A stretch of 64,000 nucleotides of DNA, taken from IMG/VR virus record IMGVR_UViG_3300017788_000011, positions 1-64,000 of that record; one strand, written 5' to 3'. This stretch comes from a virus. The notes below the pieces were generated by a model, which did not search any database, had not been told where the DNA came from, and saw nothing but the letters and a program-made list of their open reading frames with translations. Every line of letters begins with the position of its first letter. Positions within the stretch are counted from its first letter, which is position 1. The translations under genes were made by a program, and so were the position numbers. Of this stretch, positions 11,947 through 46,929 are shown piece by piece.

Positions 11947-11993
11947 GATCAGCCATAAATGATCCGTTAGGTATTTGCAGGCCACAAACTGCA
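11947..11993 (+). promoter_or_regulatory. Tandem RNA hairpins before the polymerase ribosome binding site (putative autoregulatory operator)
   Basis: Hairpin 1: GATCA (11947-11951), loop GCCATAAA, TGATC (11960-11964). Hairpin 2: TGCAG (11976-11980), loop GCCACAAA, CTGCA (11989-11993). Both have a 5-bp perfect stem and an 8-nt loop; the loops differ at one base while the stems differ completely, so the loop and geometry are conserved. The second ends one base before TAAGGAG. The T4 gp43 translational operator is also a 5-bp stem with an 8-nt loop next to the Shine-Dalgarno, so polymerase binding is the natural inference. Confidence 0.75.
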
Positions 11994-12004
11994 TAAGGAG
12001 AAAA

Positions 12005-14671
12005 ATGAGTTACGTCGATGCATACTTCGACCGCGACAATGATATCATCAAAATTGTCGAACGGTCAAAAGCAGGAAAAAGAGAATACAGAGATATTCCT
12101 GTAAAATATACCTTTTATTACGAAGATCAAAGAGGTAAATTTCAATCCATTTACAGCACACCTCTCAGCAGAGTGGTCTGTAAAAACTCCAAAGAGTTTC
12201 GCAAAGAATTAGCAATACATTCAAATAAAAAACTCTACGAATCAGATATCAATCCCATATTCACTTGTTTAAGTGAAAACTATCTTAATCAAGACGCACC
12301 AAATCTACACATTTGCTTTTTTGACATCGAGGTCGACTTTGATCCAGAGCGTGGTTATGCATCACCGGATGATCCTTTCATGCCAATTACGGCAATCACT
12401 GTTTACTTAAAATGGTTAGATAGTTTAGTTACATTGGCGTTGCCTCCGAAGACCTTAACCATAGATCGAGCCAAAGAACTCTGTGCTGACATTCCCAACG
12501 TTTATTTGTTCGACAAAGAAGCAGATCTATTAGAAACATTTATCGACTTAATTCAAGATGCTGATATTATCAGTGGATGGAACAGCGAAGGTTTTGACGT
12601 ACCTTATACTGTGAACAGAACTGCTAAGATTCTCAGCAAAGAAGATACTCGTAGATTTTGCCTGTTTGATCAGTTTCCCAAACGCAGAGAATACGAAAAA
12701 TATGGTAGGCAACAGGAAACCTATGACTTTGTAGGTCGTGTGCATCTTGACAGTCTCGAACTGTATCGTAAGTACACCTATGAAGAAAGACACACTTACC
12801 GACTGGACGCCATTGGTGAAATGGAGATTGGTGAGAATAAAACTGTTTACGAAGGTACTCTCGATCAATTATACAACAACGACTTTAGAACGTTCATTGA
12901 ATACAATCGACAGGACGTTGCACTGTTAAACAAACTGGATGAGAAATTAAAATTCATCGATCTTGCCAACACCCTGGCACATGAATGTACTGTACTACTA
13001 CAAACAACCATGGGAGCCGTGGCTGTTACTGAACAGGCCATTATCAATGAAGCACATCGTAGAAACATGCAGGTTCCTAACAGAACCAAAATGGATGAAC
13101 GAGAAGATACACAGGCCGCCGGGGCGTATGTGGCATATCCCAAAGAAGGACTACAAGATTGGGTTGGGTCGTTAGATATTAACTCACTGTACCCTTCTGC
13201 TATTAGAGCCTTGAACATGGGCCCAGAAACTATCATCGGGCAATTACGTCCGGATTACACAAAACAACACATAGAAGAACAGATAGCCAAAGGCAAAAGT
13301 TTTGCCGCGTCTTGGGAGGGTAAATTCGGATCAGACGAATACGAAGCAGTAATAGCACAGCGCATCGACACTGAGATAACCATAGAATGGGAACACGGAG
13401 AAAAGACTGTACACAGTGCCGCAGAAGTATACCGAATAATTTTTGAAAGTAATCAACCTTGGATGATTTCAGCCAACGGCACTATCTTTACCTATGAAAA
13501 AGAAGGCGTCATTCCTGGACTGCTAAAACGTTGGTATGCTGAACGCAAAGAGATGCAGGGCAAACTCAAAGATAGTATCAAGGCAGGAAATAAAGTAGAA
13601 GAAGAATACTGGGACAAACGTCAGCTCGTTAAAAAGATTAATCTTAACTCACTGTACGGTGCTATTCTTAATCCTGGCTGTAGGTTCTTTGATAAACGTA
13701 TCGGACAGTCAACTACGTTAACAGGTCGACAGATTGCCAAACACATGGCCAGTAAGGTAAATGAGATTGTTGCAGGAGAATATATTCACGTTGGTAAAGC
13801 CATTATCTATGGCGACACAGACTCTTGTTATTTTAGTGCTTATAAAACTTTACAGAAAGATATTGATTCGGGCGTTATTCCTTGGACCAAAGAAAATGTA
13901 GTTGCTCTATATGATCAAATTGGTGAAGAAGTAAACAGTACCTTTCCTAAATTCATGGAAGACGCATTTCATTGTCCTAAATCGCGGGGCGAAGTTATCA
14001 AAGCAGGACGAGAGATTGTTGGATCAAAGGCTCTGTTTATCACGAAGAAACGTTATGCTGTATTGTATTATGACAAAGAAGGCAAGCGCACAGACGTCGA
14101 TGGTAAACCAGGTAAGATCAAAGCCATGGGACTTGATCTTAAACGTTCAGATACTCCAGAATTTATTCAAAATTTCCTAAGCGATATTCTCGAACGTGTA
14201 CTAACTGGTTCTACTGAGGAAGAAGTATTAGACTTTATCTCTGCGTTTAGAACAGAATTTAAATCAAGGCCGGGTTGGGAAAAAGGATCGCCTAAGCGAG
14301 CCAACAACATCACTGAATACGAAGCCAAAGAAAAGAAACAGGGCAAGGCTAATATGCCGGGGCATGTCCGTGCCAGTATCAATTGGAATACTTTGAAGCG
14401 TATGTATGGTGACAAATATTCTATGAATATAGTTGACGGTATGAAAGTCATTGTCTGTAAACTCAAAGATAATCCATTGGGCTTTACATCTGTGGCTTAC
14501 CCCACAGACGAACTTAGATTACCTAAGTGGTTTATGGAACTGCCGTTTGACGATGCAGAAATGGAAACTACTATTATCGATAACAAGTTAGAAAACTTAA
14601 TCGGTGTTCTTAAATGGGATATTAAGAGTACCGAACAGAACAATACATTTAACAAACTGTTCGAGTTTTAA
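12005..14671 (+). CDS. 43: Family B DNA polymerase (T4 gp43-like)
   Basis: An 888-residue replicative polymerase. The 3'-5' exonuclease motif I is FFDIEVDF (Asp107). Polymerase motif A is DINSLYPS (Asp391), motif B is KKINLNSLYGA (about 542-552) and motif C is YGDTDS (602-607), so both activities should be intact. Length is near T4 gp43 (898 residues). I chose ATG 12005 behind AAGGAG; an upstream in-frame TTG lacks a ribosome binding site and lies in the operator region. It would work with the clamp encoded downstream. Translation is probably controlled by the tandem hairpins just upstream. Confidence 0.97.
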   Translation: MSYVDAYFDRDNDIIKIVERSKAGKREYRDIPVKYTFYYEDQRGKFQSIYSTPLSRVVCKNSKEFRKELAIHSNKKLYESDINPIFTCLSENYLNQDAPNLHICFFDIEVDFDPERGYASPDDPFMPITAITVYLKWLDSLVTLALPPKTLTIDRAKELCADIPNVYLFDKEADLLETFIDLIQDADIISGWNSEGFDVPYTVNRTAKILSKEDTRRFCLFDQFPKRREYEKYGRQQETYDFVGRVHLDSLELYRKYTYEERHTYRLDAIGEMEIGENKTVYEGTLDQLYNNDFRTFIEYNRQDVALLNKLDEKLKFIDLANTLAHECTVLLQTTMGAVAVTEQAIINEAHRRNMQVPNRTKMDEREDTQAAGAYVAYPKEGLQDWVGSLDINSLYPSAIRALNMGPETIIGQLRPDYTKQHIEEQIAKGKSFAASWEGKFGSDEYEAVIAQRIDTEITIEWEHGEKTVHSAAEVYRIIFESNQPWMISANGTIFTYEKEGVIPGLLKRWYAERKEMQGKLKDSIKAGNKVEEEYWDKRQLVKKINLNSLYGAILNPGCRFFDKRIGQSTTLTGRQIAKHMASKVNEIVAGEYIHVGKAIIYGDTDSCYFSAYKTLQKDIDSGVIPWTKENVVALYDQIGEEVNSTFPKFMEDAFHCPKSRGEVIKAGREIVGSKALFITKKRYAVLYYDKEGKRTDVDGKPGKIKAMGLDLKRSDTPEFIQNFLSDILERVLTGSTEEEVLDFISAFRTEFKSRPGWEKGSPKRANNITEYEAKEKKQGKANMPGHVRASINWNTLKRMYGDKYSMNIVDGMKVIVCKLKDNPLGFTSVAYPTDELRLPKWFMELPFDDAEMETTIIDNKLENLIGVLKWDIKSTEQNNTFNKLFEF

Positions 14672-26363: not shown

Positions 26364-27128
26364 ATGGTAGTGAAGTTCAATGAATATGCAGGAAAGAAAG
26401 AAACCGCCGTGGACGCGATGGCAGACAAAGGCTACGAAGAAGCGTACCTTGCAGATGTAATTCGCTTTAAAATGAAACGTGATAATAAGCGTTTTTGGGC
26501 CGGTGACAACATCAGTGATTATGTCACTGAGGAAATGAAACATAAACTAATCGACGAAGCAACAGAAGCATTTGAATTAGTTCTTGATCGATTGCTGATT
26601 GACAGAGAAACCGATCCTAATAGTCAAGGCACAGCACGTAGATTGGCTAAGATGTACTTTAACGAGATAATGAGTGGTAGATATGAACAAGCCCCAGATT
26701 GCACAGCGTTCCCAAATGATTCGGAGGACCGTTACGAAGGTATGTTGGTTGTTCGCAGTGAGCTTCGCAGTATGTGTAGCCATCATCACCAACCCGTTAG
26801 TGGCGTTGCTTATATTGGTATTATTGCGGCTTCCAAGCTCATTGGCCTCTCAAAGTACACCCGTATCGCACAGTGGTGCGCCAGACGTGGTACTCTCCAG
26901 GAGGAACTTGCTAATGATATTGCTCGCGAGATCGCCAAGGCCACAGGAGCCCAAGATGTAGGTGTATACATTCAAGCGGTTCATGGCTGTTGCGAAAATA
27001 GGGGCATTATGGCTCACTCCAGTCTCACACAGACCACAGTATTAAAAGGTTCGTTCAAAGATGACGCAGGTACAAAGAAAGAGTTCTTTGATAACATCAA
27101 ACTGCAACAAGATTTCGCCCCACGATAA
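26364..27128 (+). CDS. folE: GTP cyclohydrolase I (FolE)
   Basis: A 254-residue enzyme that makes dihydroneopterin triphosphate from GTP, the first step of folate and 7-deazaguanine synthesis. The zinc-site segment MCSHHHQPVSG (Cys138, His140, His141) and the GCCENRGIMAHSSLTQT block supply the third ligand region and active-site residues. KLIGLSKYTRIAQWCARR is also a family hallmark. An extra N-terminal stretch of about 40 residues is present. It has its own perfect early promoter. With ThyX consuming folate cofactor and QueE downstream, it can serve both pathways. Confidence 0.93.
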   Translation: MVVKFNEYAGKKETAVDAMADKGYEEAYLADVIRFKMKRDNKRFWAGDNISDYVTEEMKHKLIDEATEAFELVLDRLLIDRETDPNSQGTARRLAKMYFNEIMSGRYEQAPDCTAFPNDSEDRYEGMLVVRSELRSMCSHHHQPVSGVAYIGIIAASKLIGLSKYTRIAQWCARRGTLQEELANDIAREIAKATGAQDVGVYIQAVHGCCENRGIMAHSSLTQTTVLKGSFKDDAGTKKEFFDNIKLQQDFAPR

Positions 27129-27741: not shown

Positions 27742-28089
27742 ATGAAGCCACAAACGCCCGCAGAAGGTATTCTTAAAAAAAATGATTGGGGAGACTCAAA
27801 GGTCTATGATGTCGTCTGCGGCTGTGGAGATCCTGATCACAATCACAGTGTTTGGATAGAATCGGACGAGACTGGTGTTAATGTTACCCTTTATACCAAT
27901 GTAAAATCAGCCTTTTGGTCTATGAATAGGTTTAAACAGATATGGACTTTAATTACCAAAGGTTATTTACAACACGAGGCAACAATTTTCATGAGTCCAC
28001 AACAGGCATTTAATTATGCCGAAACTCTTAAGTCTGCTGTCAATGATGTAGTACAATTTAGAAAAAATAGAAATCATGAGCAAAATTAA
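27742..28089 (+). CDS. Hypothetical protein with Cys/His cluster
   Basis: A 115-residue protein. Near residue 25 it has VVCGCGDPDHNHSVWIE, a Cys-x-Cys plus His-x-His cluster that could bind a metal ion. The rest is alpha-beta with a C-terminal helix. I considered QueD because of HNH and the neighbouring queE, but the T-fold landmarks are missing. The 3' end overlaps queE by 14 bases. Confidence 0.55.
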   Translation: MKPQTPAEGILKKNDWGDSKVYDVVCGCGDPDHNHSVWIESDETGVNVTLYTNVKSAFWSMNRFKQIWTLITKGYLQHEATIFMSPQQAFNYAETLKSAVNDVVQFRKNRNHEQN

Positions 28090-28948
28090 AATCGCAGAAT
28101 TATTTTATTCAATACAAGGCGAAGGACGGTACATGGGGGTCCCGTCTGTTTTCTTACGTACATTTGGCTGTAACTTTAAGTGTGCCGGATTTGGCATGCC
28201 CAACGGCGAAGTCAGTAAAGAAGTGGATGTTATTGCTGAGAAAATTTCACAGTTTAAATCATATGAAGAATTGCCGTTGGTCAGTACCGGCTGTGACAGT
28301 TACGCAAGTTGGGATCCAAGATTTAAAAATCTCAGTCCTATGCTTACTACCGATGCTATCGCTGATCGTATAATGGAAATACTTCCCTACAATAAATGGG
28401 AAAGTGAACATCTTGTGATCACCGGTGGAGAACCGTTACTGGGATGGCAACGTGCTTACCCTGATTTATTGCAACACGAAAAGATGCAACCATTAAAAGA
28501 AATTACTTTCGAAACCAATGGTACACAAAAACTAACTCCAGATTTTCGACATGTACTGTTAGATTGGACATTAAATCCCAGAGGTACGCCTGGTGGAAAA
28601 AGAGGATATGATTCTCTGACATTTTCAGTCAGTGCTAAATTGAGTTGCAGTGGTGAAAGCAGAGAAGAAGCAATTCGACCAGACATTGTCTGCGAATATC
28701 AAGAAGTAGGATATACATATCTTAAATTTGTAGTGGCCACAGAAGATGATGCCGAAGAAGCGTTAGAAACATTAGACATTTATCGAGCAGAAGGTTTTGA
28801 AGGACCTTGCTATCTAATGCCCGTGGGCGGTGTCGAAAGTGTCTACACACTTAATAATCGTCGTGTAGCAGAATTGGCTATGAAAATGGGTCTACGATAC
28901 AGCGACCGATTACAAGTGCCGCTATTTAAAAATGAATGGGGAACCTAA
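28076..28948 (+). CDS. queE: 7-carboxy-7-deazaguanine synthase QueE, phage type
   Basis: A 290-residue radical SAM enzyme converting 6-carboxytetrahydropterin to 7-carboxy-7-deazaguanine. ELFYSIQGEGRYMGVPSVFL is the QueE N-terminal hallmark and VITGGEPLL the SAM-binding GGEP motif. The cluster motif is unusual: Cys32 and Cys36 (CNFKC) are present, but the third canonical position is Phe39; Cys73 in STGCDSYASW is the likely third ligand. There is a large insertion between these, and the protein is longer than most bacterial QueE. With FolE and DpdA it indicates deazaguanine DNA modification. Confidence 0.88.
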   Translation: MSKIKIAELFYSIQGEGRYMGVPSVFLRTFGCNFKCAGFGMPNGEVSKEVDVIAEKISQFKSYEELPLVSTGCDSYASWDPRFKNLSPMLTTDAIADRIMEILPYNKWESEHLVITGGEPLLGWQRAYPDLLQHEKMQPLKEITFETNGTQKLTPDFRHVLLDWTLNPRGTPGGKRGYDSLTFSVSAKLSCSGESREEAIRPDIVCEYQEVGYTYLKFVVATEDDAEEALETLDIYRAEGFEGPCYLMPVGGVESVYTLNNRRVAELAMKMGLRYSDRLQVPLFKNEWGT

Positions 28949-35935: not shown

Positions 35936-36250
35936 GTGGGCGGTAAAAATTTGCCCGAAGACATTGTCAGTCTGTGGCCAGAAGTCTTCGGTGATGTAGT
36001 GTTGAACTCAGTGCCTTATCCATATCTTGAATCTATTATCATCACGTTTGAAAATGGAAAAATATGGAATGTAGAAGCGCCTGAAGAAAAAAATCAAGAC
36101 TCTTGGGATCAGATCGAATCTAATCTAAAAATATTAATGCGTGACTATGGTGATCAAATCAACAATATTGATTTTAAATTAGACACTGCAAAAATTAAAA
36201 AAGATGTGATTAGACAAACTAAGAAATTTCTCAAACAGCAGAAATTATGA
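35936..36250 (+). CDS. Hypothetical protein, GTG start
   Basis: A 104-residue protein (LPEDIVSLWPEVFGDVVLNS, IITFENGKIWNVEAPEE), alpha-beta with a basic helical end. Not recognised. GTG 35936 is the best start after the upstream stop. Its stop converges with, and overlaps by six bases, the minus-strand gene 36245-36916, so there is no room for a terminator between them. Confidence 0.55.
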   Translation: MGGKNLPEDIVSLWPEVFGDVVLNSVPYPYLESIIITFENGKIWNVEAPEEKNQDSWDQIESNLKILMRDYGDQINNIDFKLDTAKIKKDVIRQTKKFLKQQKL

Positions 36251-36916
36251 TATCTTACTGAATTCGTGTTGCAGCCACGCCCAGTCGTTGATTTTAGCAA
36301 TATCCTGCGGGTGCGTATTTACAAAGTTTTTTCCGGCATTAGAGCCAATGATAGTTTCTTTTCCGAACTGGGCTGTTTCTCCCACTGTACACCATGTCTG
36401 TAGTCTTCGCTCAGTTTCTAAATCATTTTGACGTTTGATAATTTTGCTGGCCAGTTTGGCAGATTCTCTAAAACCACTTTTCCAAGCATTAAACGGATCT
36501 GTATTAAAATGTGTTATATTGCTGACTTGATCGATTGATTTAAAACTCGAGGATATGCTGGTTGTAAAATCCACAGAGGATTTATCTACTTCGATAGTTT
36601 TAAATTTAGGTAGCAATTTAATTCCGCCATAACCGTATTCAAGATCGTTAACAGGATTACGACTTTTCCAAACATGAACAGTTTCTAAATCCCAGTTAGA
36701 TACTTTGAAACGAAAATCAAAATTATCAAGTACTTCTGCATCTGCGTCAACTACCCAGAACATTTTTGTCAAGGATTTTTTTGCCGCGGCAATGTGAGCA
36801 TTGTGTATGCCTTCAACATTAAGTATGCGCTTGGCCATTGGAAAACGTTTTTTCAGTTGGCGCCAATGTTTTTCAGCGTTAGGTTCGAAAAAGGAAATAA
36901 AAAAGATATCGTACAT
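36245..36916 (-). CDS. GT-A-like glycosyltransferase, paralogue of the gene at 38983-39885
   Basis: A 223-residue protein. EPNAEKHWRQLKKRFPMAKR, NVEGIHNAHIAAAK and FWVVDADAEVLDNF give a nucleotide-sugar-binding layout with a DxD-type DAD motif. NDLEYGYGGIKLLP and WKSGFRESAKLA also match its paralogue (NGLEYGNGGLKLW, WRAGFREGVKMG). Donor and acceptor are unknown. I chose ATG 36916 because MYDIFFISF begins the conserved strand; an upstream start would add 16 residues. It reads toward the convergent plus-strand operon. Confidence 0.65.
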   Translation of the reverse strand: MYDIFFISFFEPNAEKHWRQLKKRFPMAKRILNVEGIHNAHIAAAKKSLTKMFWVVDADAEVLDNFDFRFKVSNWDLETVHVWKSRNPVNDLEYGYGGIKLLPKFKTIEVDKSSVDFTTSISSSFKSIDQVSNITHFNTDPFNAWKSGFRESAKLASKIIKRQNDLETERRLQTWCTVGETAQFGKETIIGSNAGKNFVNTHPQDIAKINDWAWLQHEFSKIS

Positions 36917-36921
36917 GATTT

Positions 36922-36929
36922 TATTTAAC
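36922..36929 (-). promoter_or_regulatory. Possible late promoter (GTTAAATA) on the minus strand
   Basis: On the minus strand GTTAAATA lies immediately before ATG 36916. Six of eight positions match the T4 late consensus. The very short distance would give an almost leaderless transcript, so this is tentative. Confidence 0.25.
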
Positions 36930-36944
36930 ACTACTATTATAGCA

Positions 36945-36952
36945 AATAAATA
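36945..36952 (+). promoter_or_regulatory. T4-type late promoter (AATAAATA)
   Basis: AATAAATA lies 18 bases before the radical SAM start at 36970, in the short divergent region. Seven of eight positions match the late consensus. Confidence 0.5.
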
Positions 36953-36969
36953 TTCCGAGAACAAACATT

Positions 36970-38046
36970 ATGGCATTAGAACCCATTGACTTCAGTGATA
37001 TTACTCCAGGTAAACCTATTCGAACCTACGACGAAACTGGCAAATGGCGAGACTGGTCAACTGACGAAATAGTTGCTCAAAAATTAAATTTCTATCGAGG
37101 TTGGTATTGTGGAGCAGGTGTTGAAAACTTGTCTATCAACATGGACGGAGATGTGTTTGTTGCTACCTGTCAAAATCATGGAAAGTTAGGTAACATATTC
37201 GAAGATTTTACCATTCCCGACGATTGGACTGTTTGTTATAAACCGGTGTGTTCTTGTGGGGCTGATCTGTTTATACCAAAAGCCAAAACAAAAAGACAGA
37301 CAATTTTTTTAAGAAAACATCACGGACAGCCCACACATACTGCTCTTCAAGACAGTTCTCAAACAGAGTTTGTGGCCGCAGAAAGAACTCATTCTACTAA
37401 TGTAAAACAAGTATATTGGGAAGTGGGTCGTAGATGCAATTACGACTGTGGTTATTGCTTGCCTTGGATTCATAACAACACTGACCCGCATAAAAGTCTC
37501 GAAGTGCTTATGGAAGCAACAAAAAAACTTGAAGCAAAGTTTATCAAAGGCAGCAAAGTTAATTTTATCATCAGCGGAGGGGAGCCTACTGCTAACAAGC
37601 ATTTTCTCGATTGGGTTAGGTATCTAAATTCCCAAGGTCATCATATCAGTTTACATTCAAACGGTAGTAGATTACCTAAATACTATAAAGAGATAATTCA
37701 CTACGGTGATTTAAATCTTTCAGTGCATTTTGAATTTTACGATAAAGAAAAATTTATAAAAGTAGTGGAGGCAGTGGTATTAGAAAAAATGGGTACTGTT
37801 GAACGAACCGGTCATTTGGAAATCAAAGTAATGACGCCAGCAGGCTGTCTCGACCAAGCATTAGATTTAGAGGATTCTTTGAAAAAGATTCCTGGATTTG
37901 TAAATTACTGTACCTGGGCATTTGTTCCGATACGGGGAACTATGGACAATAAAAACTTCAAGAGACACCAATCAAAATTTGTCGACGAAATCATGCCCGA
38001 TTATACCGAACATGAAATTAAATTCTTTGGTGCAAGAAACCCTTAA
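36970..38046 (+). CDS. Radical SAM protein with N-terminal SPASM-like domain (permuted order)
   Basis: A 358-residue protein. Residues 44-105 form a five-cysteine domain (Cys47, 67, 89, 94, 96) of the SPASM/auxiliary-cluster type, beginning GWYCGAGVENLSINMDG. The radical SAM core follows with RRCNYDCGYC (Cys156, 160, 163) and FIISGGEPTAN. Normally the auxiliary domain lies after the core, as in the neighbouring gene 38043-38996, which has the same cysteine spacing at its C-terminus. After the core this protein simply ends. The substrate is unknown; the place in a glycosyltransferase island suggests sugar or peptide modification. It converges with the next gene, overlapping by four bases. Confidence 0.85.
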   Translation: MALEPIDFSDITPGKPIRTYDETGKWRDWSTDEIVAQKLNFYRGWYCGAGVENLSINMDGDVFVATCQNHGKLGNIFEDFTIPDDWTVCYKPVCSCGADLFIPKAKTKRQTIFLRKHHGQPTHTALQDSSQTEFVAAERTHSTNVKQVYWEVGRRCNYDCGYCLPWIHNNTDPHKSLEVLMEATKKLEAKFIKGSKVNFIISGGEPTANKHFLDWVRYLNSQGHHISLHSNGSRLPKYYKEIIHYGDLNLSVHFEFYDKEKFIKVVEAVVLEKMGTVERTGHLEIKVMTPAGCLDQALDLEDSLKKIPGFVNYCTWAFVPIRGTMDNKNFKRHQSKFVDEIMPDYTEHEIKFFGARNP

Positions 38047-38996
38047 ATCTTTATCTTAGTAGACATAATGTCATAGTTACAATGACACATAGTTTTAGTA
38101 CAGACTATAGGATCTACTTCTAACAGTTGTTCTTGTTCTATATGTCCGATCGGACCGCCAACTTTACACCAGCCTCTATAAATTCGACCATCCATATCAA
38201 CAATTAACTGTTCGACACCTGCGAAACATTTCCACCCGCTCCAGTCATTAGTTTTTTCTGCGATAAATCGATGAGCACTTTTTACCTGACTGGTGCCGTC
38301 TGTATATACTTCACGCATGGCTCCTCTATAATATTGAACCTTTTTGGTAAATTTAATTTTTTTAGAAAAAAGTTCGTGTTGCTTATCAAAAATTTCTTGT
38401 TGTTCCGCAGTGTATTCGTATAGTGTATCACCAAAATCGACTATCAAAGGCTGTAATGCCATGGAAATATTATCAATTTCAGTTACACGATTAGCCACAG
38501 AACAGCAAGCATCAAACTTTTCAGGACTCATCATAATATTAACATGAGTTCTAACAGTGTCATGCAATAATTTTACTACACTGATAAAATGTTCAACATC
38601 GGAAAATTCAGGATGATAACTTAGGCAGACATGATCAAGATATTGCGTATGTTCTTCCCAGAATCTGATAGTGCGGGATCCGTTGCTGATAATGCCAACT
38701 CGTACATCGTTGTCGTTGCAAAATTTGCACAGATCAGTGAAGTGTTTGTATAAAGTAACTTCGCCGCCGGTAAATTCAAAATAGATTTTCTTATTAGGAT
38801 GTTGTTGTTTTAATTTCAGAACAAAACGTTTTACAACATCTATGTCCGGCCACCGTTTGGAGCCATCGTGTAACCCCGACGGACAATAACTGCATTTAAA
38901 ATTGCAGGTATTTCCAAGACACCAATTGACTACAAACCAATTATTATGATCTTGATTAGAGTGTACTAATCTAATAGGAATATTAATCGGCTCCAC
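38043..38996 (-). CDS. Radical SAM protein with C-terminal SPASM-like domain
   Basis: A 317-residue protein starting at GTG 38996. NTCNFKCSYC (Cys31, 35, 38) binds the catalytic cluster and FEFTGGEVTLY is the SAM-binding GGE motif. Residues about 254-310 hold five cysteines (257, 277, 299, 304, 306) starting GWKCFAGVEQLIVDMDG, matching the N-terminal domain of the neighbouring radical SAM protein in sequence and exact spacing. It is translationally coupled to the glycosyltransferase-like gene upstream (14-base overlap), so they probably act together. Confidence 0.85.
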   Translation of the reverse strand: MEPINIPIRLVHSNQDHNNWFVVNWCLGNTCNFKCSYCPSGLHDGSKRWPDIDVVKRFVLKLKQQHPNKKIYFEFTGGEVTLYKHFTDLCKFCNDNDVRVGIISNGSRTIRFWEEHTQYLDHVCLSYHPEFSDVEHFISVVKLLHDTVRTHVNIMMSPEKFDACCSVANRVTEIDNISMALQPLIVDFGDTLYEYTAEQQEIFDKQHELFSKKIKFTKKVQYYRGAMREVYTDGTSQVKSAHRFIAEKTNDWSGWKCFAGVEQLIVDMDGRIYRGWCKVGGPIGHIEQEQLLEVDPIVCTKTMCHCNYDIMSTKIKI

Positions 38997-39885
38997 CTTT
39001 TAACCTTCTTGGAATATGAGTAACTGTGGATTTAAAAAACTTAGAACCATTGGCATCGAGATCTGCTATTTCTAATCTAAGACTACTGCGAATAATATCA
39101 CCGAGCCTTACAATTTCATTGTTTAGATCACTGTCAGTGTTAGGTTTTGTCTCGTCAAACAATGTTTTAAGATATTCAAAGTCTCTGACATTTGCGTAAT
39201 CCCAATCAGTACAATATGCCATATGCAAGCCTTGTCTGGCTCCATACACTGACCAAAGCCCATTCTTAACGTCAGCGCCGATGGTGCACCAAATTAACAA
39301 TCTGCGATAATTCTGTCTCCAAACTTTTCTAAGGTCATCAACTTTGAATCCCTGATCAAGACCCATTTTAACACCCTCACGAAACCCTGCTCGCCATGCT
39401 TGAAAAGGTGTTGAGTTAGTAAAACTTTCAGAATATCGTTCGTTGAATTGATAATATCGTTGATCAAAACAAAATTCGACTTTATTTCTCTCATCGTGCG
39501 GCAACGCATTTTCGTGTGTTTTCATATTATTAACAAATTCTCTTGTCCATAATTTTAAACCACCGTTTCCATATTCGAGACCGTTAACATGGATTCTTCC
39601 GCACCAACTGAACACATAAGATTCGTCTAATCCAAGTTCGTCGAAATCAATTTCTACATTAAGATAATCAGGTTCAATGATGTTATCTGCATCTACTGTG
39701 GTAAAATATTCGGTGTCGCTGATGGCGGCACAGGCTTTGTGTGCGGCATCCGAACCTTTGACTCCATGTACACGTTTAGCCCAGGGCACTTTGTTTAATA
39801 AGTCTACATAATTTTCTTCAGCATTGGGTTCATCGTAACTTAAAAATACAATGTCTTGGTCTATAATTTTAATTTTTTTATTCAT
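38983..39885 (-). CDS. GT-A-like glycosyltransferase
   Basis: A 300-residue protein. DIVFLSYDEPNAEENYVDLL, VKGSDAAHKACAA and YFTTVDADNIIEPDYLNV give the donor-binding fold with a DADN (DxD) motif. NGLEYGNGGLKLWTREFV and FQAWRAGFREGVKMG follow. It is a longer paralogue of 36245-36916, with an extra C-terminal part. The N-terminus MNKKIKIIDQ precedes the first strand. It overlaps the radical SAM gene downstream and the unknown gene upstream, forming one operon. Confidence 0.68.
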   Translation of the reverse strand: MNKKIKIIDQDIVFLSYDEPNAEENYVDLLNKVPWAKRVHGVKGSDAAHKACAAISDTEYFTTVDADNIIEPDYLNVEIDFDELGLDESYVFSWCGRIHVNGLEYGNGGLKLWTREFVNNMKTHENALPHDERNKVEFCFDQRYYQFNERYSESFTNSTPFQAWRAGFREGVKMGLDQGFKVDDLRKVWRQNYRRLLIWCTIGADVKNGLWSVYGARQGLHMAYCTDWDYANVRDFEYLKTLFDETKPNTDSDLNNEIVRLGDIIRSSLRLEIADLDANGSKFFKSTVTHIPRRLKGGAD

Positions 39886-40495
39886 GTGTTTCTATTAAAG
39901 TATAAAAGTTAAATCCTCGGCGCACAGTAACTACATCCGTTGGATGTTTCTCAACATCTGATTCAAAAGAAAATCCTATACGTTCTTCCTGAGCAAGTTC
40001 GTATATATTAATGCTGAAACTTCTGTACAAAATATTAGGATCGTTAGATTTAACTATGAAAAAATCATGATTGTACTTTGCACCATTAGCATCTATAACC
40101 GACTGTCTACTTTCTTTGGAAATCCTAAAATACCAGCATCGATCTTTTAGATTTTTTTCTACAATAACTTCAGACTGTTCAGTTAGGGGATCTCTGGGAA
40201 TTATAAAAAGGCGGCCACCGTCTGAGGAAATATCCTCTCGTTTGTTTACAATCAGCGATTGTTTATTATTTAAAAAAACAATCTTAAAATCTGAGGGAAT
40301 TTTTTTACCGGTAAGGAAATCTTCAACCATGATTAACGGCATAGGAACCATACCGTCTTCACCGGGATCCATCTGCTCGTTTGAAATAGTTTTTACAGTA
40401 CCATCTACTTTATCAAAGTAGAGATACATTTGATTAGATACAGTGTCGTTAAAATCAGGAACTAAGTCTTCATCTTCATCTATTATGTTTTTCAT
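39878..40495 (-). CDS. Hypothetical protein of the glycosyltransferase island
   Basis: A 205-residue protein that I do not recognise. It starts MKNIIDEDEDLVPDFNDT and is predicted beta-rich in the middle (DFKIVFLNNKQSLIVNKRED, DGGRLFIIPRD). No membrane segment or catalytic motif is visible. I chose ATG 40495 over an upstream TTG. It overlaps both neighbours, so it should be made together with the glycosyltransferases; it may be a virion protein that is their target. Confidence 0.55.
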   Translation of the reverse strand: MKNIIDEDEDLVPDFNDTVSNQMYLYFDKVDGTVKTISNEQMDPGEDGMVPMPLIMVEDFLTGKKIPSDFKIVFLNNKQSLIVNKREDISSDGGRLFIIPRDPLTEQSEVIVEKNLKDRCWYFRISKESRQSVIDANGAKYNHDFFIVKSNDPNILYRSFSINIYELAQEERIGFSFESDVEKHPTDVVTVRRGFNFYTLIETHE

Positions 40496-41324
40496 ACTTT
40501 TCCTCAATCATTTTAACAACACTCTTGGTTAAAAATTCTTCTTCGACGTAATGAAAAATTCCAGTCTGGCTGCAATTACCTATTTTTAATCTACAATCTT
40601 CATCCATGGAAACATTAACAAAATCAGACCATTTGCCTGGAGGATTTTTCCATCCTTGAATTGCCGGCTTCATATGAACAAATGTTGGTATTGGTATTGT
40701 AGATGCAACTGTGTCAGAAACATTTAGTATTTTTGCAGTAATAGCACTGCTGACATCCATGCTCATCCATTTTTGAGTATCTTTGGGTGTAACTTTTTGA
40801 TATATTTCTTGCCAATTTTTGCAAACTGTTTCTAACATAGAGTAAAATTCTAATGCAAAATCAGATTTTTTAAAGTAATGAAATCCAAAATATAAATTAG
40901 GAAGACCGTTGTTTAAAAAAGTTTTTCTATACACTGCATCTTCTACTGGTTTGTTTCTATAAGTTTTAACCTGAGAGGCAAACAATAAGTCATGCTGTTC
41001 TAAAAAATTCCATTGGTGTTCTACGCTGTCGAGAAACAGCATGTCAGCATCAAGTACCACAGTTTCTTCATAAGGACTTACATGAAACAGTTTCCATCTG
41101 TTTTCAACTTTCCATTCTGATCCTACTGCCAAGTCACTCCACGGTATACGAATAATATGATCAAATAGATGTTGATACTTTTCAGGGATAACATCATTAG
41201 TTACCAATGATACAGAATTTATCGTTGGTTGAGTGAGTTTTATTGTCATAGCCAGGACAACTGCCTGCATGACATAGTTAACTTTTAAACTATTCTGGGC
41301 TAAGATTAGGTAACCGCGATTCAT
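40476..41324 (-). CDS. GT8-like glycosyltransferase
   Basis: A 282-residue protein. GYLILAQNSLKVNYVMQAVV at the N-terminus, SVSLVTNDVIPEKYQHLFD, and ETVVLDADMLFLDSVE with a DxD (DAD) motif resemble the GT8 fold. A later NLYFGFHYFKKSDFAL block resembles acceptor-side elements, and a FVHMKPAIQGW segment has the His often needed for metal binding. It is a paralogue of the next upstream gene 41321-42160 (shared FAQN start and VIDADY motif). The two overlap by four bases (ATGA). Confidence 0.68.
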   Translation of the reverse strand: MNRGYLILAQNSLKVNYVMQAVVLAMTIKLTQPTINSVSLVTNDVIPEKYQHLFDHIIRIPWSDLAVGSEWKVENRWKLFHVSPYEETVVLDADMLFLDSVEHQWNFLEQHDLLFASQVKTYRNKPVEDAVYRKTFLNNGLPNLYFGFHYFKKSDFALEFYSMLETVCKNWQEIYQKVTPKDTQKWMSMDVSSAITAKILNVSDTVASTIPIPTFVHMKPAIQGWKNPPGKWSDFVNVSMDEDCRLKIGNCSQTGIFHYVEEEFLTKSVVKMIEEKYEKHNR

Positions 41325-42160
41325 TGATTATACATCCTGATTAAACTTTGCTTATTCATTACGTGAACATCAAGCCCTTGTGTTTTTATCAATGTATAAC
41401 AGCCGAGACTTTCTTGTTTTTCAACAAGGAAACGCATTTTGTCGTTTTTTATTTCCCATAAAATATCTCTATCTGTTATATAATACATTCTTCCTGGAAG
41501 ATTTTTTGCAAAATCACCGTCGGTTAATCCGTTCATATAATGAATGGCAATGCTGAAGGCATGATCATTTCTAAATAAAGAACTCTCAAATTCAAATAAC
41601 AATTTAAAGTATGTCCAGTTTTCGTGAATATGTTTTATATAATCAAAGAATATTTCAGTGGCAGCAGTTTTTCTAAAATAAAAAACTGTGGCCCAATAAA
41701 AGTCAATGCTTTTATCACTAAGAACTTGAAACTCTGAGGGCTTCCTCCATACTGCTAAGTCTACAGAGTCTTTGTAAATTAAAAAATCATCTGGGGATCC
41801 CCAACATCCGTTTAATACATCTGAACAGATCAAATAATCTGCATCAATTACCAATGTTTCTTTGTACGGACTGATATCAAACGATCTAACTCTTAATTGA
41901 TTTTTCCAGGACATTGATCTGTATACTATTGATCCGTCATAAAATCGCTTTTGTTGTTTGGTTAGATCTTTTCCTTCAATTATTTTATCAAATAATGTTG
42001 AACTATCTGGATGAAGTTCTAACAGACTTTTTTTATCGTTGGTAACTATAGTAACCGGTTTATCTAAATATCGTTTGGCACGTTTGGCTGCTTCGACGGC
42101 TAATTGATTATAATCAATACTACCGTTGTTCTGTGCAAAAATTAAAATTCCTTGACTCAT
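41321..42160 (-). CDS. GT8-like glycosyltransferase, paralogue of 40476-41324
   Basis: A 279-residue protein. It begins SQGILIFAQNNGSIDYNQLA, has KPVTIVTNDKKSLLELH and then KETLVIDADYLICSDVL with the DxD motif. The C-terminal DVHVMNKQSLIRMYNQ holds the metal-ligand-like His. It differs enough from its neighbour to suggest another donor or acceptor. Overlaps both flanking genes by ATGA. With the nearby fibre genes the likely role is virion glycosylation, which is inference. Confidence 0.66.
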   Translation of the reverse strand: MSQGILIFAQNNGSIDYNQLAVEAAKRAKRYLDKPVTIVTNDKKSLLELHPDSSTLFDKIIEGKDLTKQQKRFYDGSIVYRSMSWKNQLRVRSFDISPYKETLVIDADYLICSDVLNGCWGSPDDFLIYKDSVDLAVWRKPSEFQVLSDKSIDFYWATVFYFRKTAATEIFFDYIKHIHENWTYFKLLFEFESSLFRNDHAFSIAIHYMNGLTDGDFAKNLPGRMYYITDRDILWEIKNDKMRFLVEKQESLGCYTLIKTQGLDVHVMNKQSLIRMYNQ

Positions 42161-42569: not shown

Positions 42570-43574
42570 TTAAGTTAAATTAGAACCCGGGCCCAATGAA
42601 GCACCGAGGCCGCGAACATTGACATTAGGGCCAGATGGTCTAAACGCTTGAACATAACTGGTAAAGGGACTAACCAATTCGTCATTTCTTATTCGAGGTG
42701 GATTAAACACACCCACAGAATCATCTCGATACTCAATTCTAAAAGTTATTAATGTAGCACCGCCTTGAAAATTGTCTGCAACATTACATTTGGCTTTAAT
42801 AACTAAATCGTTTTCCGCATAAACACCTGCTTCTGCTTCTTTACCAAATATAAATTGATACGTATCTGTTAAATCATAAAATCCAACTGTGGAATTGTTA
42901 CCGGTTGGGGCTGTAGTATCGGCATAGTCAAAGATAACCACGTTAGGTCTTAGTGCGCCGCCGTAGTATGATGTGTAAAATGGATCATCATTTGAAAAAA
43001 TCTTTTCCCAAGAGGCGTTCTTTGCCACACTTGCGGCCGGTTCGCCTGTGCGATTCAATACAGAGTAAAAACGAAGTTGTCCGCCAGCATTGAAAAAATA
43101 TCTAAAGTTGGCTGCTTTTCCTGCGCCGTCTGCAGACGATATTACTCTAATTTCATGAATTTTAACTGCTCTCCACTGAACGGTCTGACTGGCAGTGTGT
43201 ATTGTGGATAATGTTCCCTGACTTGGGGCACAAACATATCTGTCATCTCTTATCAATCTACGCATATTGTCATATTGGTTGCGTAGTTCCTCTGTGATAA
43301 GATCAGCAGTAGTAGGTCTTAAAAGATTTAAACCGTCAAGAGAATTAGATTCGCCAATACCTTGTCCAGTCTGATGTCTTCGAATACGAATCATATCGTT
43401 GCGTAATCGTAACCAGTCATTTAGAAGAATACGCTGGGCGACTGTTCTCGGAGTACTTTGACGATCTCCCTGGCCGTAGCCATCTCTACCAGCACCCGGT
43501 CCCAGAGTTAATTCAATTCTACTTTGGATTTGGTTATAATCCGCTGCTAATATTTTGTTGCCTACACCAGCCAT
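42570..43574 (-). CDS. Putative tail-fibre or baseplate-attached structural protein
   Basis: A 334-residue protein beginning MAGVGNKILAADYNQIQSRI, an N-terminus style seen in T4-like marine phage fibre proteins. The central part is Arg-rich and helical (RLRNDMIRIRRHQTGQG); the C-terminal half is beta-rich (FRYFFNAGGQLRFYSVLN, ITFRIEYRDDSVG). No catalytic motif. It is the last gene of the fibre operon. It is probably a virion component, from context and composition. Confidence 0.65.
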   Translation of the reverse strand: MAGVGNKILAADYNQIQSRIELTLGPGAGRDGYGQGDRQSTPRTVAQRILLNDWLRLRNDMIRIRRHQTGQGIGESNSLDGLNLLRPTTADLITEELRNQYDNMRRLIRDDRYVCAPSQGTLSTIHTASQTVQWRAVKIHEIRVISSADGAGKAANFRYFFNAGGQLRFYSVLNRTGEPAASVAKNASWEKIFSNDDPFYTSYYGGALRPNVVIFDYADTTAPTGNNSTVGFYDLTDTYQFIFGKEAEAGVYAENDLVIKAKCNVADNFQGGATLITFRIEYRDDSVGVFNPPRIRNDELVSPFTSYVQAFRPSGPNVNVRGLGASLGPGSNLT

Positions 43575-43586
43575 TTTTGTCCCTTA

Positions 43587-45059
43587 TTATAATATAACTG
43601 ATTCAATTAATTTTACACTGGTGTCGTCACTTGTGTCAAGTGCCACTCCAAAAACTTCAGTATAGTTATGGGGTTCTGCCCGAACTGCACATCCATTATT
43701 GGTTGGGACAAGTCTATCTCCTTTTCGAATCTTTCCAATTATTTTTACAGGAACTCGACCTTTAAGTGCCACATACTGGCCGCCTTCAAGGTCACTGTTC
43801 ATTTTGAAAGCAGGCTTACCGGAAATTACACCTATGGCCTTATCTCCCGACATTGATTCACGAACTTCGGCCGATCCGCCAACTGAAACTACTGTACCGA
43901 TATCATAATCCTGATCTGTTAAATATTTTTCTGCTAAGTCGGCGTATCTTGCTGACGTTGCTGTTCCCTCAAAGAGGTTAGCGGAAATATTTCCGGATCC
44001 GTCTCTACCAGCAATAGTATTAGCAGTTGCCGCTGTAGAGGCTGTTCGATAAGTTCCGCCGAGATTCAACGCATCAGAGCGTGTTGCAGTTCCATCGAAT
44101 CCGTAGGCGTAGATAGTTTTAAACTTGGCCACTGGAGAGCCAATATCATGAACATTATCTGAACCTGGTAAAACATGATTACCTACCAATCGCAAAGGAG
44201 TAGTAGAGGCTGTTCCGCCGACGGTAGTTCTAAATTCAATTGTAGTTCCAATTTGATTTTGAATTACTGGAGTATTACCACCAACAACAGAAACTTTTAA
44301 GTCATCGTCATCACCAACTGTAAAACCAAAATCTGTAAAGGAAGCCAGACCTTGAAACGCCGCATTTACACTGGTAATGTACTCTAAGGCTAATTTTCCG
44401 CCGAGACGTAGCGAATCCGATGCTGTGCCCCAATATACAAATTCTGAACCGACGTTTGCTACACCAGTTACATCATTGGTATAGGCCAGTGTGGTTCCTT
44501 TTTTAATTTTTGTAAAACCGGTTATCGGATTTACTGCGGAATCAAGAATAAATTCATCTTTGCTGATGACAAAAATTACAGCATCATCTGCAACTGCTTC
44601 AATACAGGGATGATCAACACCAAATACATCACGCAGATTACGTGAACGCATTTGAGTAGTACCTGCGCCTTGAACACCCTGCGGGCCAACAAGGATAAAT
44701 TCTGTTCCGTTCCAAACACTTATTTGATCGTTAGCAGTGTCAAACCAAAGGTCGCCGGATGTAAGTCCAGTAGGGGCTGTGGCTGAAACTTCTGCGCCAC
44801 CTGTGGTTCTGAATTTTGCACCATCGTAAAATTTTAGTTTTTTAGAACTACTATCAAACCAAACTTGTCCGCTGATTTTTTTACCGGGTGGGTTTGGTCC
44901 GGCGAAATTTTCCAGCAAAAATACAAAATTTTCGTTTTGTATTTCACCGTAACCCGCATAGTTTTTACCGATTAACTTAATATCGAGCGTACTATCAACT
45001 GTACCGTCCTCAACAACCGCTATCGGTGTACCATCATAACGATCAATATTATAAGCCAT
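43587..45059 (-). CDS. Tail-fibre protein with C-terminal peptidase_G2/chaperone-like domain
   Basis: A 490-residue fibre. Residues about 30-75 contain the module KNYAGYGEIQNENFVFLLEN and then GQVWFDSSSKKLKFYDG, shared with the next two fibre genes. The C-terminal about 120 residues start ARYADLAEKYLTDQDYDIGT and include KAIGVISGKPAFKMN, a pattern known from phage fibre domains related to peptidase G2 and intramolecular chaperones, so self-cleavage is possible. A late-promoter element (45085-45092) serves it separately. Confidence 0.78.
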   Translation of the reverse strand: MAYNIDRYDGTPIAVVEDGTVDSTLDIKLIGKNYAGYGEIQNENFVFLLENFAGPNPPGKKISGQVWFDSSSKKLKFYDGAKFRTTGGAEVSATAPTGLTSGDLWFDTANDQISVWNGTEFILVGPQGVQGAGTTQMRSRNLRDVFGVDHPCIEAVADDAVIFVISKDEFILDSAVNPITGFTKIKKGTTLAYTNDVTGVANVGSEFVYWGTASDSLRLGGKLALEYITSVNAAFQGLASFTDFGFTVGDDDDLKVSVVGGNTPVIQNQIGTTIEFRTTVGGTASTTPLRLVGNHVLPGSDNVHDIGSPVAKFKTIYAYGFDGTATRSDALNLGGTYRTASTAATANTIAGRDGSGNISANLFEGTATSARYADLAEKYLTDQDYDIGTVVSVGGSAEVRESMSGDKAIGVISGKPAFKMNSDLEGGQYVALKGRVPVKIIGKIRKGDRLVPTNNGCAVRAEPHNYTEVFGVALDTSDDTSVKLIESVIL

Positions 45060-45084
45060 TTGCTAAAGCCCCTTGTTCCTTTTA

Positions 45085-45092
45085 TATTTATT
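45085..45092 (-). promoter_or_regulatory. T4-type late promoter (AATAAATA), minus strand
   Basis: On the minus strand AATAAATA spans 45092 to 45085, overlapping the stop of the upstream fibre gene and lying about 25 bases before the ATG at 45059, with AAGGAA between them. Confidence 0.55.
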
Positions 45093-46929
45093 AAACTAAA
45101 CTTGCTATGTCTGACTGGTAAACCCAGGATCCTGCCACTACTTGATAGCGTTTTATTACCCTTGTAACCGTTATTATCGCATCTCCTGCATTAATCGGGT
45201 TAGTTTGAATGTTTTGTATCACATTCTGATTGTTTGTACCACCATTTTTATCCACCAATACTGTGGTATATTCGATACTGTAATCATCAGGATCTAATGC
45301 ACTGCCAATAGTTAGTGGAATCGCACTGTAACTGACTGCTGTAACGGTGCAATGAATATTTGCGTTAGTGCCGTTGGCAAAGGTACTTGACGGGGCTATT
45401 TGATTTAATGCTACAGCAATCTGCGAGTTATTCAACCCTGTAATATCCATGGTTAGCGCAATATTTCTGGCGCTGATGGCCAAATCAACATAACCTTTGT
45501 TTGCAATTACTGCGGCAGTGCCAGAGTTCGCATTGGCTGTATATGTAGTGGCATTTGAAACTTGCAGTACTCCGGTTCCAGTAGTGGAAAAGGTGATGGT
45601 TCCATTAGATGCTGTATTACTTATAGTGCTGCCGTCAATGTTAATATCATCAACTTGCAAAGATAACATATTGCCTACAGAACGCAATCCTGGTGCTGAA
45701 ACTACGCTGGTACCTAATGCTGTTTCTGATAAAACCTCAACATCATTAACCTTGTAAGTTTTTCCTGTGGCTAAATTTAAATGCTCTGAAGATTTCCAAC
45801 TTTGACTGCTGTTATTAAACAAGAAAGATTTGTTTGAAGAGCTTTCAAGAATAATTCCGCCGTTATTGGCTGCAGAATCGCTGACAGTGCCCTGTCCTAC
45901 TATTATGTTCTTGTCTTTGATAGTTAAATTGTTTGACGAAATAGTAGTAGTTGTTCCTTCAACTGTTAGGTTTCCACCAATGATAACATTGCCATCAACG
46001 TCAAGTGTAGCAGAAGGTGCTGTATTAAAAATACCGATTCGTCGGGTTTCTGAGTCAATGAATAACACAGATTCGGGCTGTCCTGGAACAGCCGCATTAG
46101 AACTTCTTATTTTAAAATTATAATTTTGATTAGTGATATTAGTGGCAAATTCTATATTTTCATCAACAATAGATACTGATGCATCGTTTAAGTTTCCGAT
46201 AGTAATACCACTGTTGCTCTGTACGTTTAGTCTAAATCTTGTTGTGCCTTCTTTATAAGTAGGCAAAAAGGAATCCGCATTACGGGCTACACCACCTGTA
46301 TCGACCAAGGATTCAGCCGCAGAAACTGTGGTATATATTTTAAAGTTTGCCAACGCAATATTAAGACCTATCTTAATATCACTGTTTTGTAATCCCGGAA
46401 TAGGATCTTTAACTGTAAATTCTTCTTTGGCTATAACTCCAAGTAAAACATTTCCTAAATAAAGTTTTAAAATGTTATGTGAAACGCCGTTAGTGTCGAC
46501 TTCAGTAGTTGTTAAGAATCCCGAACGACCCTGTAATGCAGTGTATACAGGACCTGCTAAAATATCATCTCGTCCATCATAAAACCAAACTTGATCGAGT
46601 CTACTGTCGATCCAGATATCTCCAGCAACCATGTCTTGCGGACGGGAAGGAGATACAATAGGAGCACCGCTGGTTCTAAAAATATTTCCGTCGTAGATTT
46701 TTAATCTGGATTCATTAGTATCATACCACAACTGTCCTCTAAGGGGATTAGTTGGACGAGCATCGCTGGCAAAATTTTCAAGTAACTTTACAAAATTTTC
46801 ATTGATATATTCACCAAAGCCGCTGAAATTTTTGCCTATTAAAGTTATGTCAGTTGACAACTGATCAATAGTACCATCTACTAATTCAGTTAAGAGCGTG
46901 GCATCTGTTTTATTAATTTTATATGTCAT
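45091..46929 (-). CDS. Tail-fibre protein with shared N-terminal module
   Basis: A 612-residue fibre. The N-terminal module reads GKNFSGFGEYINENFVKLLE and GQLWYDTNESRLKIYDGN, as in its neighbours. The middle is beta-rich with typical fibre segments (IGIFNTAPSATLDVDGNVII, ATLDVDGN being a common fibre repeat motif). It ends in a beta-rich C-terminus without a collar or peptidase motif. The start overlaps the upstream fibre stop as ATGA. It is probably trimeric; the adhesion specificity is unknown. Confidence 0.78.
   Translation of the reverse strand: MTYKINKTDATLLTELVDGTIDQLSTDITLIGKNFSGFGEYINENFVKLLENFASDARPTNPLRGQLWYDTNESRLKIYDGNIFRTSGAPIVSPSRPQDMVAGDIWIDSRLDQVWFYDGRDDILAGPVYTALQGRSGFLTTTEVDTNGVSHNILKLYLGNVLLGVIAKEEFTVKDPIPGLQNSDIKIGLNIALANFKIYTTVSAAESLVDTGGVARNADSFLPTYKEGTTRFRLNVQSNSGITIGNLNDASVSIVDENIEFATNITNQNYNFKIRSSNAAVPGQPESVLFIDSETRRIGIFNTAPSATLDVDGNVIIGGNLTVEGTTTTISSNNLTIKDKNIIVGQGTVSDSAANNGGIILESSSNKSFLFNNSSQSWKSSEHLNLATGKTYKVNDVEVLSETALGTSVVSAPGLRSVGNMLSLQVDDINIDGSTISNTASNGTITFSTTGTGVLQVSNATTYTANANSGTAAVIANKGYVDLAISARNIALTMDITGLNNSQIAVALNQIAPSSTFANGTNANIHCTVTAVSYSAIPLTIGSALDPDDYSIEYTTVLVDKNGGTNNQNVIQNIQTNPINAGDAIITVTRVIKRYQVVAGSWVYQSDIASLV

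Follow-up and report, generated by a model that had tools for sequence, protein, structure and literature searches.

The gene pair and its setting

The window analysed here is a stretch of 64,000 nucleotides within a virus record of 131,485 bases. The record carries the gene for a phage DNA polymerase (window 11975-14671), genes for tail-fibre and virion structural proteins, and a giant structural open reading frame (ORF) of 4,577 amino acids. Where the rightward genes for replication and metabolism meet a leftward block of fibre, GT8 and GTx genes lie two radical SAM genes, whose products are called A and B (Table 1). These had been described as convergent with a four-base overlap, and both ORFs were confirmed with exactly that layout.

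In what follows, C denotes the radical SAM core and d the Twitch-like domain. Thus, Cd is the canonical order, dC is the permuted order, and a split pair has C and d as two genes. B is a Cd protein, and A is a dC protein.

The genome's third radical SAM gene is QueE-like (phrog_2076, E 4e-52; window 28076-28948). With a gene for GTP cyclohydrolase I (PF01227, E 1e-38; window 26364-27128), it probably belongs to a 7-deazaguanine route.

Table 1. Features of the window, and variants found in related loci (locus numbers begin with L).
Feature	Location	Strand	Basis
GTx, putative GT-A-like glycosyltransferase	36245..36964	-	DxD-like motif; 31% identity to 38983-39885
Protein A, permuted radical SAM (Twitch-like domain, linker, core), 358 aa	36970..38046	+	PF04055 2.5e-16
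Twitch-like five-Cys domain of A, residues 15-106, N-terminal; equivalent to B residues ~224-316	37012..37287	+	BLASTP; hhalign, 85 columns, E 5e-24
Linker of A, residues 107-143 (~37 residues), from the domain's natural C-end to the core's natural N-end	37288..37398	+	Alignments with split genes
Radical SAM core of A, residues 144-358	37399..38043	+	CX3CX2C (Cys156/160/163), GGEP 203-206, six beta/alpha units
Protein B, canonical radical SAM (core, Twitch-like domain), 317 aa, GTG start	38043..38996	-	PF04055 1.7e-11
Twitch-like domain of B, residues 224-316, C-terminal	38049..38327	-	BLASTP, hhalign
Core of B, residues 19-206	38379..38942	-	CX3CX2C (Cys31/35/38)
GTx, putative GT-A-like glycosyltransferase, directly upstream of B	38983..39885	-	Paralogue of 36245-36964
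GT8/glycogenin-like glycosyltransferase 1	40476..41324	-	Glycogenin profile E 9e-8; homologues in 47 loci
GT8/glycogenin-like glycosyltransferase 2	41321..42160	-	Glycogenin-like profile match; conserved in relatives
Virion structural/tail-fibre-like genes, upstream of the glycosyltransferase and radical SAM genes	42570..46929 (42570-43574, 43587-45059, 45091-46929)	-	
Longer A variants	L021:7051-8298, L026:6936-8204, L035:6944-8197, L043:6936-8315, L081:5947-7341		
GTx-B fusions	L005:4669-6933, L015:4324-6930, L016:1405-4230, L023:4117-6933		

Two proteins from the same modules

The initial annotation had noticed a five-cysteine domain at opposite ends of the two proteins. Its cysteine positions are exact: 47, 67, 89, 94 and 96 in A, where the domain is N-terminal, and 257, 277, 299, 304 and 306 in B, where it is C-terminal. 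The spacing C-x19-C-x21-C-x4-C-x1-C is identical in both. An alignment of 41 homologues has Cys47, 89, 94 and 96 of A invariant; in the corresponding alignment of 37 homologues of B, all five are.

AlphaFold2 gives confident models for both proteins (mean pLDDT 89.8 and pTM 0.87 for A, 93.7 and 0.89 for B). Each contains a six-unit partial barrel, and each domain contains a beta-hairpin, with strands at 53-56 and 61-63 in A and at 263-266 and 271-273 in B. Foldseek alignments, which follow sequence order, span about 310 columns when B is matched to BlsE, viperin, EpeE, SuiB and others; those of A cover mainly its core, about 190 columns. These fold matches are remote, at 11-19% identity.

Some relatives of A are longer (415-464 amino acids), carrying a variable insert of ~50-110 residues between the second and third cysteines of the Twitch-like domain.

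A is circularly permuted

BLASTP aligns A with B in two segments that occur in swapped order. One covers the core (A148-269 with B23-144, 34%, E 1e-18), the other the domain (A30-106 with B240-316, 36%, E 3e-14). This rules out chance similarity.

Comparison of family alignments (41 sequences on the A side, 37 on the B side) by hhalign extends both segments. In native order, the core gives A144-356 with B19-206 (E 5e-39), and the domain gives A21-106 with B231-316 (E 5e-24). If A is rotated in silico by cutting within its linker, these two pieces become a single match of 289 columns over B 19-316 (E 2e-63), whose score is that of both native pieces together. This, in turn, means that A is a complete circular permutation, as had been suspected, and not the remnant of a fusion.

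Nothing has been lost from A in the process. The helix with Tyr-Thr-x-x-Glu that follows strand 6 in B is retained as the C-terminus of A. Sequence and models together place the new ends of A between this post-strand-6 helix and the beta-hairpin that opens the domain, and the structural elements predicted for the two proteins follow one another in matching rotated order. A is thus a circularly permuted Twitch-type radical SAM enzyme.

The Twitch domain of SkfB has its first strand packed against strand 1 of the barrel (PMC6231123). Given this packing, a short linker from the domain to strand 1 could stand in for the usual connection. The three-dimensional enzyme is expected to be a normal one, in which the barrel would hold the SAM cluster and four of the five domain cysteines an auxiliary one.

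Comparison with described families

The domain had been called SPASM-type, but it lies closer to Twitch, the type with one cluster, than to a full SPASM domain. In both A and B, one cysteine precedes the beta-hairpin and one follows it, after which comes CX4CXC. SkfB is reported to have the pattern C...CX4CXC (PMC6231123), and the conserved cysteines around the hairpin (C...G...C...CXC) fit the Twitch description. The Pfam SPASM profile (PF13186) finds no match in the phage genome at E 0.001.

A and B share with the SPASM/Twitch enzymes (SkfB, BtrN, MoaA, BlsE, EpeE, SuiB) the partial (beta/alpha)6 barrel and the CX3CX2C motif. B also resembles SkfB (PMC6231123) in having Cys, beta-hairpin, Cys and CX4CXC after the barrel. 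In these enzymes the domain is C-terminal to the core, which holds for B; in A it is N-terminal. Further, the described enzymes have Gx4C after the first cysteine, whereas A and B have Gx6C, and both sequences are too distant to reach the cut-off of PF13186 or of any NCBIfam profile.

SPASM and Twitch domains are described as C-terminal extensions, in roughly 165,000 radical SAM genes (PMC9012708). The expectation that the domain follows the core is therefore sound for these enzymes. However, NCBIfam already names an N-terminal twitch, in NF033640 (N_Twi_rSAM), so that N-terminal placement is not in itself new. Members of that family resemble A in carrying a twitch-like domain ahead of a radical SAM core, and they occur in the same phage clusters. 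Membership of A was considered and rejected: A scores 26.6 bits against a cut-off of 170, over the core only, where a positive control (L004:5860-7053) scores 295 bits. Comparison of the N-terminal domains gave the same verdict, hhalign scoring that of A at E 0.059 against 117 N_Twi-like proteins and at 1.6e-27 against the domain of B. The domain of A is instead homologous to the C-terminal domain of B.

Genes resembling N_Twi_rSAM are abundant in these clusters (258 ORFs in 111 loci, L134, L135 and L117 included), with up to 8 within one 17-kb stretch.

The nearest canonical relative in NCBIfam is the STM4011 family (NF038073), with core before domain. Neither protein belongs to it; B matches in two stretches at 55.4 bits and A scores 25.3 bits, against a cut-off of 200. 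Here, the N-terminal domain of A matches the C-terminal part of the family profile (201-253 of 278), as a permutation predicts.

A literature search, with subscription journals largely outside its scope, found no paper on N-terminal twitch domains, permuted SPASM proteins, STM4011/STM4012 or split radical SAM/SPASM genes. Within that scope, permuted and canonical paralogues as a conserved gene pair are undescribed, as are Twitch domains encoded as separate genes.

Distribution and phylogeny

A hidden Markov model for each half was run over all ORFs of 204 loci, a set that includes near-duplicates and distant bacterial relatives. This identified 207 ORFs with core before domain and 90 with domain before core. 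A search for homologues in either order had been proposed, and relatives of A do occur as both dC and Cd.

The initial annotation had, of course, allowed that the N-terminal domain might belong to another gene, joined to the core by faulty assembly. It is true that the domain is a separate gene in some relatives. However, the dC gene is intact in 88 loci, which come from a wide range of contigs and samples, and A as a single chain gives a confident model. The recurrence of the fused gene means that A is not an assembly error; an artefact of assembly or annotation is vanishingly improbable.

Of the 52 loci that have A as well as B, 42 place B upstream of A and on its strand. Of these tandems, 31 are tight (a gap or overlap within 60 nt, often an overlap of 1-4 nt) and 11 are looser. 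The convergent, overlapping layout of the window is the exception among its relatives.

Bacterial matches come mostly from Bdellovibrionota assemblies. One, on a 153-kb contig (L129) near genes for methylmalonyl-CoA mutase and carboxyltransferase, has two permuted genes in tandem (L129:7989-10018) and looks like a chromosome of Bacteriovoracaceae. Others may be phage contigs binned with their host. Against 50,697 phage records, tblastn found nothing for A, and for B only a remote match in HTVC008M at 27% coverage, with no close isolate. The permuted form is thus an old lineage in tailed phages and Bdellovibrionota genomes, usually with a canonical B just upstream.

Two further arrangements were seen in bacterial loci. 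The tandem in L129 adjoins a radical SAM gene with an N-terminal SPASM domain (PF13186 at residues 15-79, E 3e-11). Two Oligoflexia proteins of about 655 amino acids (L137:1476-3443 and L137:8031-9995) have one core followed by two copies of the domain.

A tree built jointly from both halves splits B-like from A-like proteins with support of 100/100. The A-like side contains fused (Cd), split and permuted members, and its main dC clade has support of 99/98. Separate trees for core and domain, which had been suggested as a check, agree with the separation of A from B. In the domain tree the domains of A stay apart from those of B; a recent copying of the domain from the neighbouring B into A was therefore rejected.

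The best trees contain two dC clades, the second having four members of the type found in L083. One common origin for all dC genes is not rejected by an AU test (p 0.69), and these genes form one clade in 18% of bootstraps.

Split genes among the relatives of A

Among the nearest canonical relatives of A are cases, in phages, of core and domain encoded by two adjacent genes. In L117, L134, L135, L204-L212 and L214, the core gene and the domain gene overlap by 4 nt; in L093 and L213 they are separated by intervening sequence, about 0.9 kb in L213. Eleven of these are IMG/VR loci of the L117 type (L204-L214), with L204 being the L117 contig again. Arrays of a dC gene, a separate core gene and a separate domain gene, in that order, occur in L083, L091, L093, L101 and L236-L247, where some loci are contigs already counted.

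Among the split genes that were aligned, core genes retain CX3CX2C and domain genes retain all five cysteines. Their ends, moreover, are those of A. The split core genes end in ..YYTPEELDFMLNKKK before the stop, the same end point as the ..DYTEHEIKFFGARNP that closes the core of A, and the split domain genes start where A starts. The linker of A, in alignments, looks like the tail of a standalone domain followed by the start of a standalone core. The status of these genes as standalone was read from ORFs. BFVD, too, holds a standalone domain of 100 amino acids (A0A6J5T420, TM 0.83) and a core of 206 amino acids (A0A6J5LPU6).

The route to the permutation

Such genes suggest a route. The domain of an A-type gene would have become a separate gene by fission, and that domain gene would then have been re-fused, in a tandem array, upstream of a downstream core. 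Fission followed by re-fusion in reverse order is the likeliest and most economical route, favoured because split relatives exist whose ends match those of A itself. The initial annotation had offered fusion after partial loss of a tandem gene array as an explanation. The separate domain genes in relatives fit such a route, but A itself is a whole permutation, with no fusion remnant.

The permutation might also have arisen without any separate-gene stage. Here, tandem Cd copies would have fused to CdCd and then lost the first core and the last domain, leaving dC. Radical SAM genes often stand in tandem with short overlaps in these loci, Cd beside Cd and dC beside dC included, and the linker of A would equally contain a domain tail and a core start. 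Against this, CdCd or CdC fusions of this family in which both halves are good are absent from the survey. Its only candidates are weak CCd and Cdd cases among distant bacterial proteins; split genes whose end points match, by contrast, are frequent. We consider duplication rather unlikely. Because the split genes fall in sister lineages and cannot be placed with certainty at the root of the dC clade, fission then fusion is nevertheless only the more probable route, and tandem duplication with loss of both ends keeps some probability. Alternatively, A might not be a permutation of one gene at all, its core having lost, or never possessed, this domain and then captured a copy of the one in the neighbouring B-type gene. 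A and B are adjacent and often overlap, and a domain at the 3' end of B would easily be fused to a core lying downstream. Yet both the domain and the core of A group with A-type sequences, away from B; B still has its own domain; and the canonical and split relatives of A already possess one. Domain capture is accordingly quite improbable.

What a movable Twitch module would mean

Fission and re-fusion would place the Cd, split and dC genes in a series that documents a natural circular permutation. The Twitch module would then be interchangeable in these phages, being used C-terminally, N-terminally or as a separate protein of ~100 amino acids that works in trans beside a bare core gene. We hold the case for this broader reading to be evenly balanced. 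Were it true, the standalone Twitch protein would be part of a two-subunit radical SAM enzyme of a kind previously undescribed. Nothing else in the finding is as unusual as the standalone Twitch genes. The family would also be one of few in which a circular permutation may have left its split intermediate alive.

Annotation presumes that a SPASM or Twitch domain is C-terminal. In this family, one module can follow the core, precede it or stand as its own gene. Nature has thus set up an experiment that asks whether an auxiliary cluster requires covalent attachment to the core, and the role of that cluster could be probed by adding a separate Twitch protein to a bare core. The survey also points to an unexplored group of radical SAM enzymes in the tail-fibre and glycosyltransferase region of aquatic phages.

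Glycosyltransferase neighbours and likely function

The genes flanking A and B had been called paralogous glycosyltransferases. Paralogues they are, but the glycosyltransferase call is weak; the best Pfam match of the GTx family is to GT2, at E 0.0057 and for 2 of 16 members, and a profile search of PDB with the family gave no match. The outer pair resembles GT8/glycogenin. Beyond it, two ORFs (43587-45059 and 45091-46929) have PHROG matches to tail-fibre and virion structural proteins.

Several of these neighbours are constant. The GT8 pair accompanies the radical SAM genes in 47 loci, GTx in 78, and a 192-amino-acid methyltransferase-like protein in 39. In relatives, the conserved order is fibre, 334-amino-acid protein, 115-amino-acid protein, GT8, GT8, GTx, B, A. 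In four loci (L005, L015, L016, L023) the GTx domain is fused to B.

Comparable surroundings are known. The host-recognition clusters of pelagiphages are described as holding glycosyltransferases and radical SAM cassettes (PMC7029224). As here, these cassettes place radical SAM and GT8 genes near the tail fibres of T4-like aquatic phages; the passages on these cassettes do not describe the order of domains, pairing or split genes (PMC7029224).

A and B, together with the glycosyltransferases beside the tail-fibre genes, might modify a sugar or glycan by radical chemistry (oxidation, epimerisation or a like reaction), and this sugar or glycan would be used on the virion or on the host surface. 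We propose this role with moderate to low confidence. The neighbouring glycosyltransferases, the GTx-B fusion, the fold matches and the pelagiphage clusters favour a sugar or glycan as substrate, with a virion peptide next in line. The fold matches of B include the sugar- and nucleoside-acting BlsE, AbmM, BtrN, DesII and SpeY. Peptide-modifying EpeE, SuiB and SkfB and the nucleotide-acting viperin match about as well, so that the fold matches do not single out one substrate.

A and B might instead act with the nearby N_Twi radical SAM proteins, a B12 radical SAM protein and methyltransferases on a peptide or virion protein, by epimerisation, crosslinking or C-methylation. The best PDB sequence match of B is a peptide epimerase, EpeE/YydG (E 5e-10), SkfB and SuiB are among the fold matches, a gene for a B12-binding radical SAM protein lies directly downstream of A in one locus (L035:8197-10521), and tail-fibre genes adjoin. 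However, the models have no extra peptide-binding domain before the core of B, and the strongest constant partners are glycosyltransferase-like, with one fused to B. We regard a peptide substrate as possible but doubtful. The joint explanation that we consider probable is that A is a permuted Twitch-type enzyme of an old lineage, most likely arose by fission and re-fusion, and may act with B on a sugar or glycan.

The GTx-B fusion proteins are 754-941 amino acids long, and in them GTx is preceded by several W/Y-rich repeats of ~95 residues.
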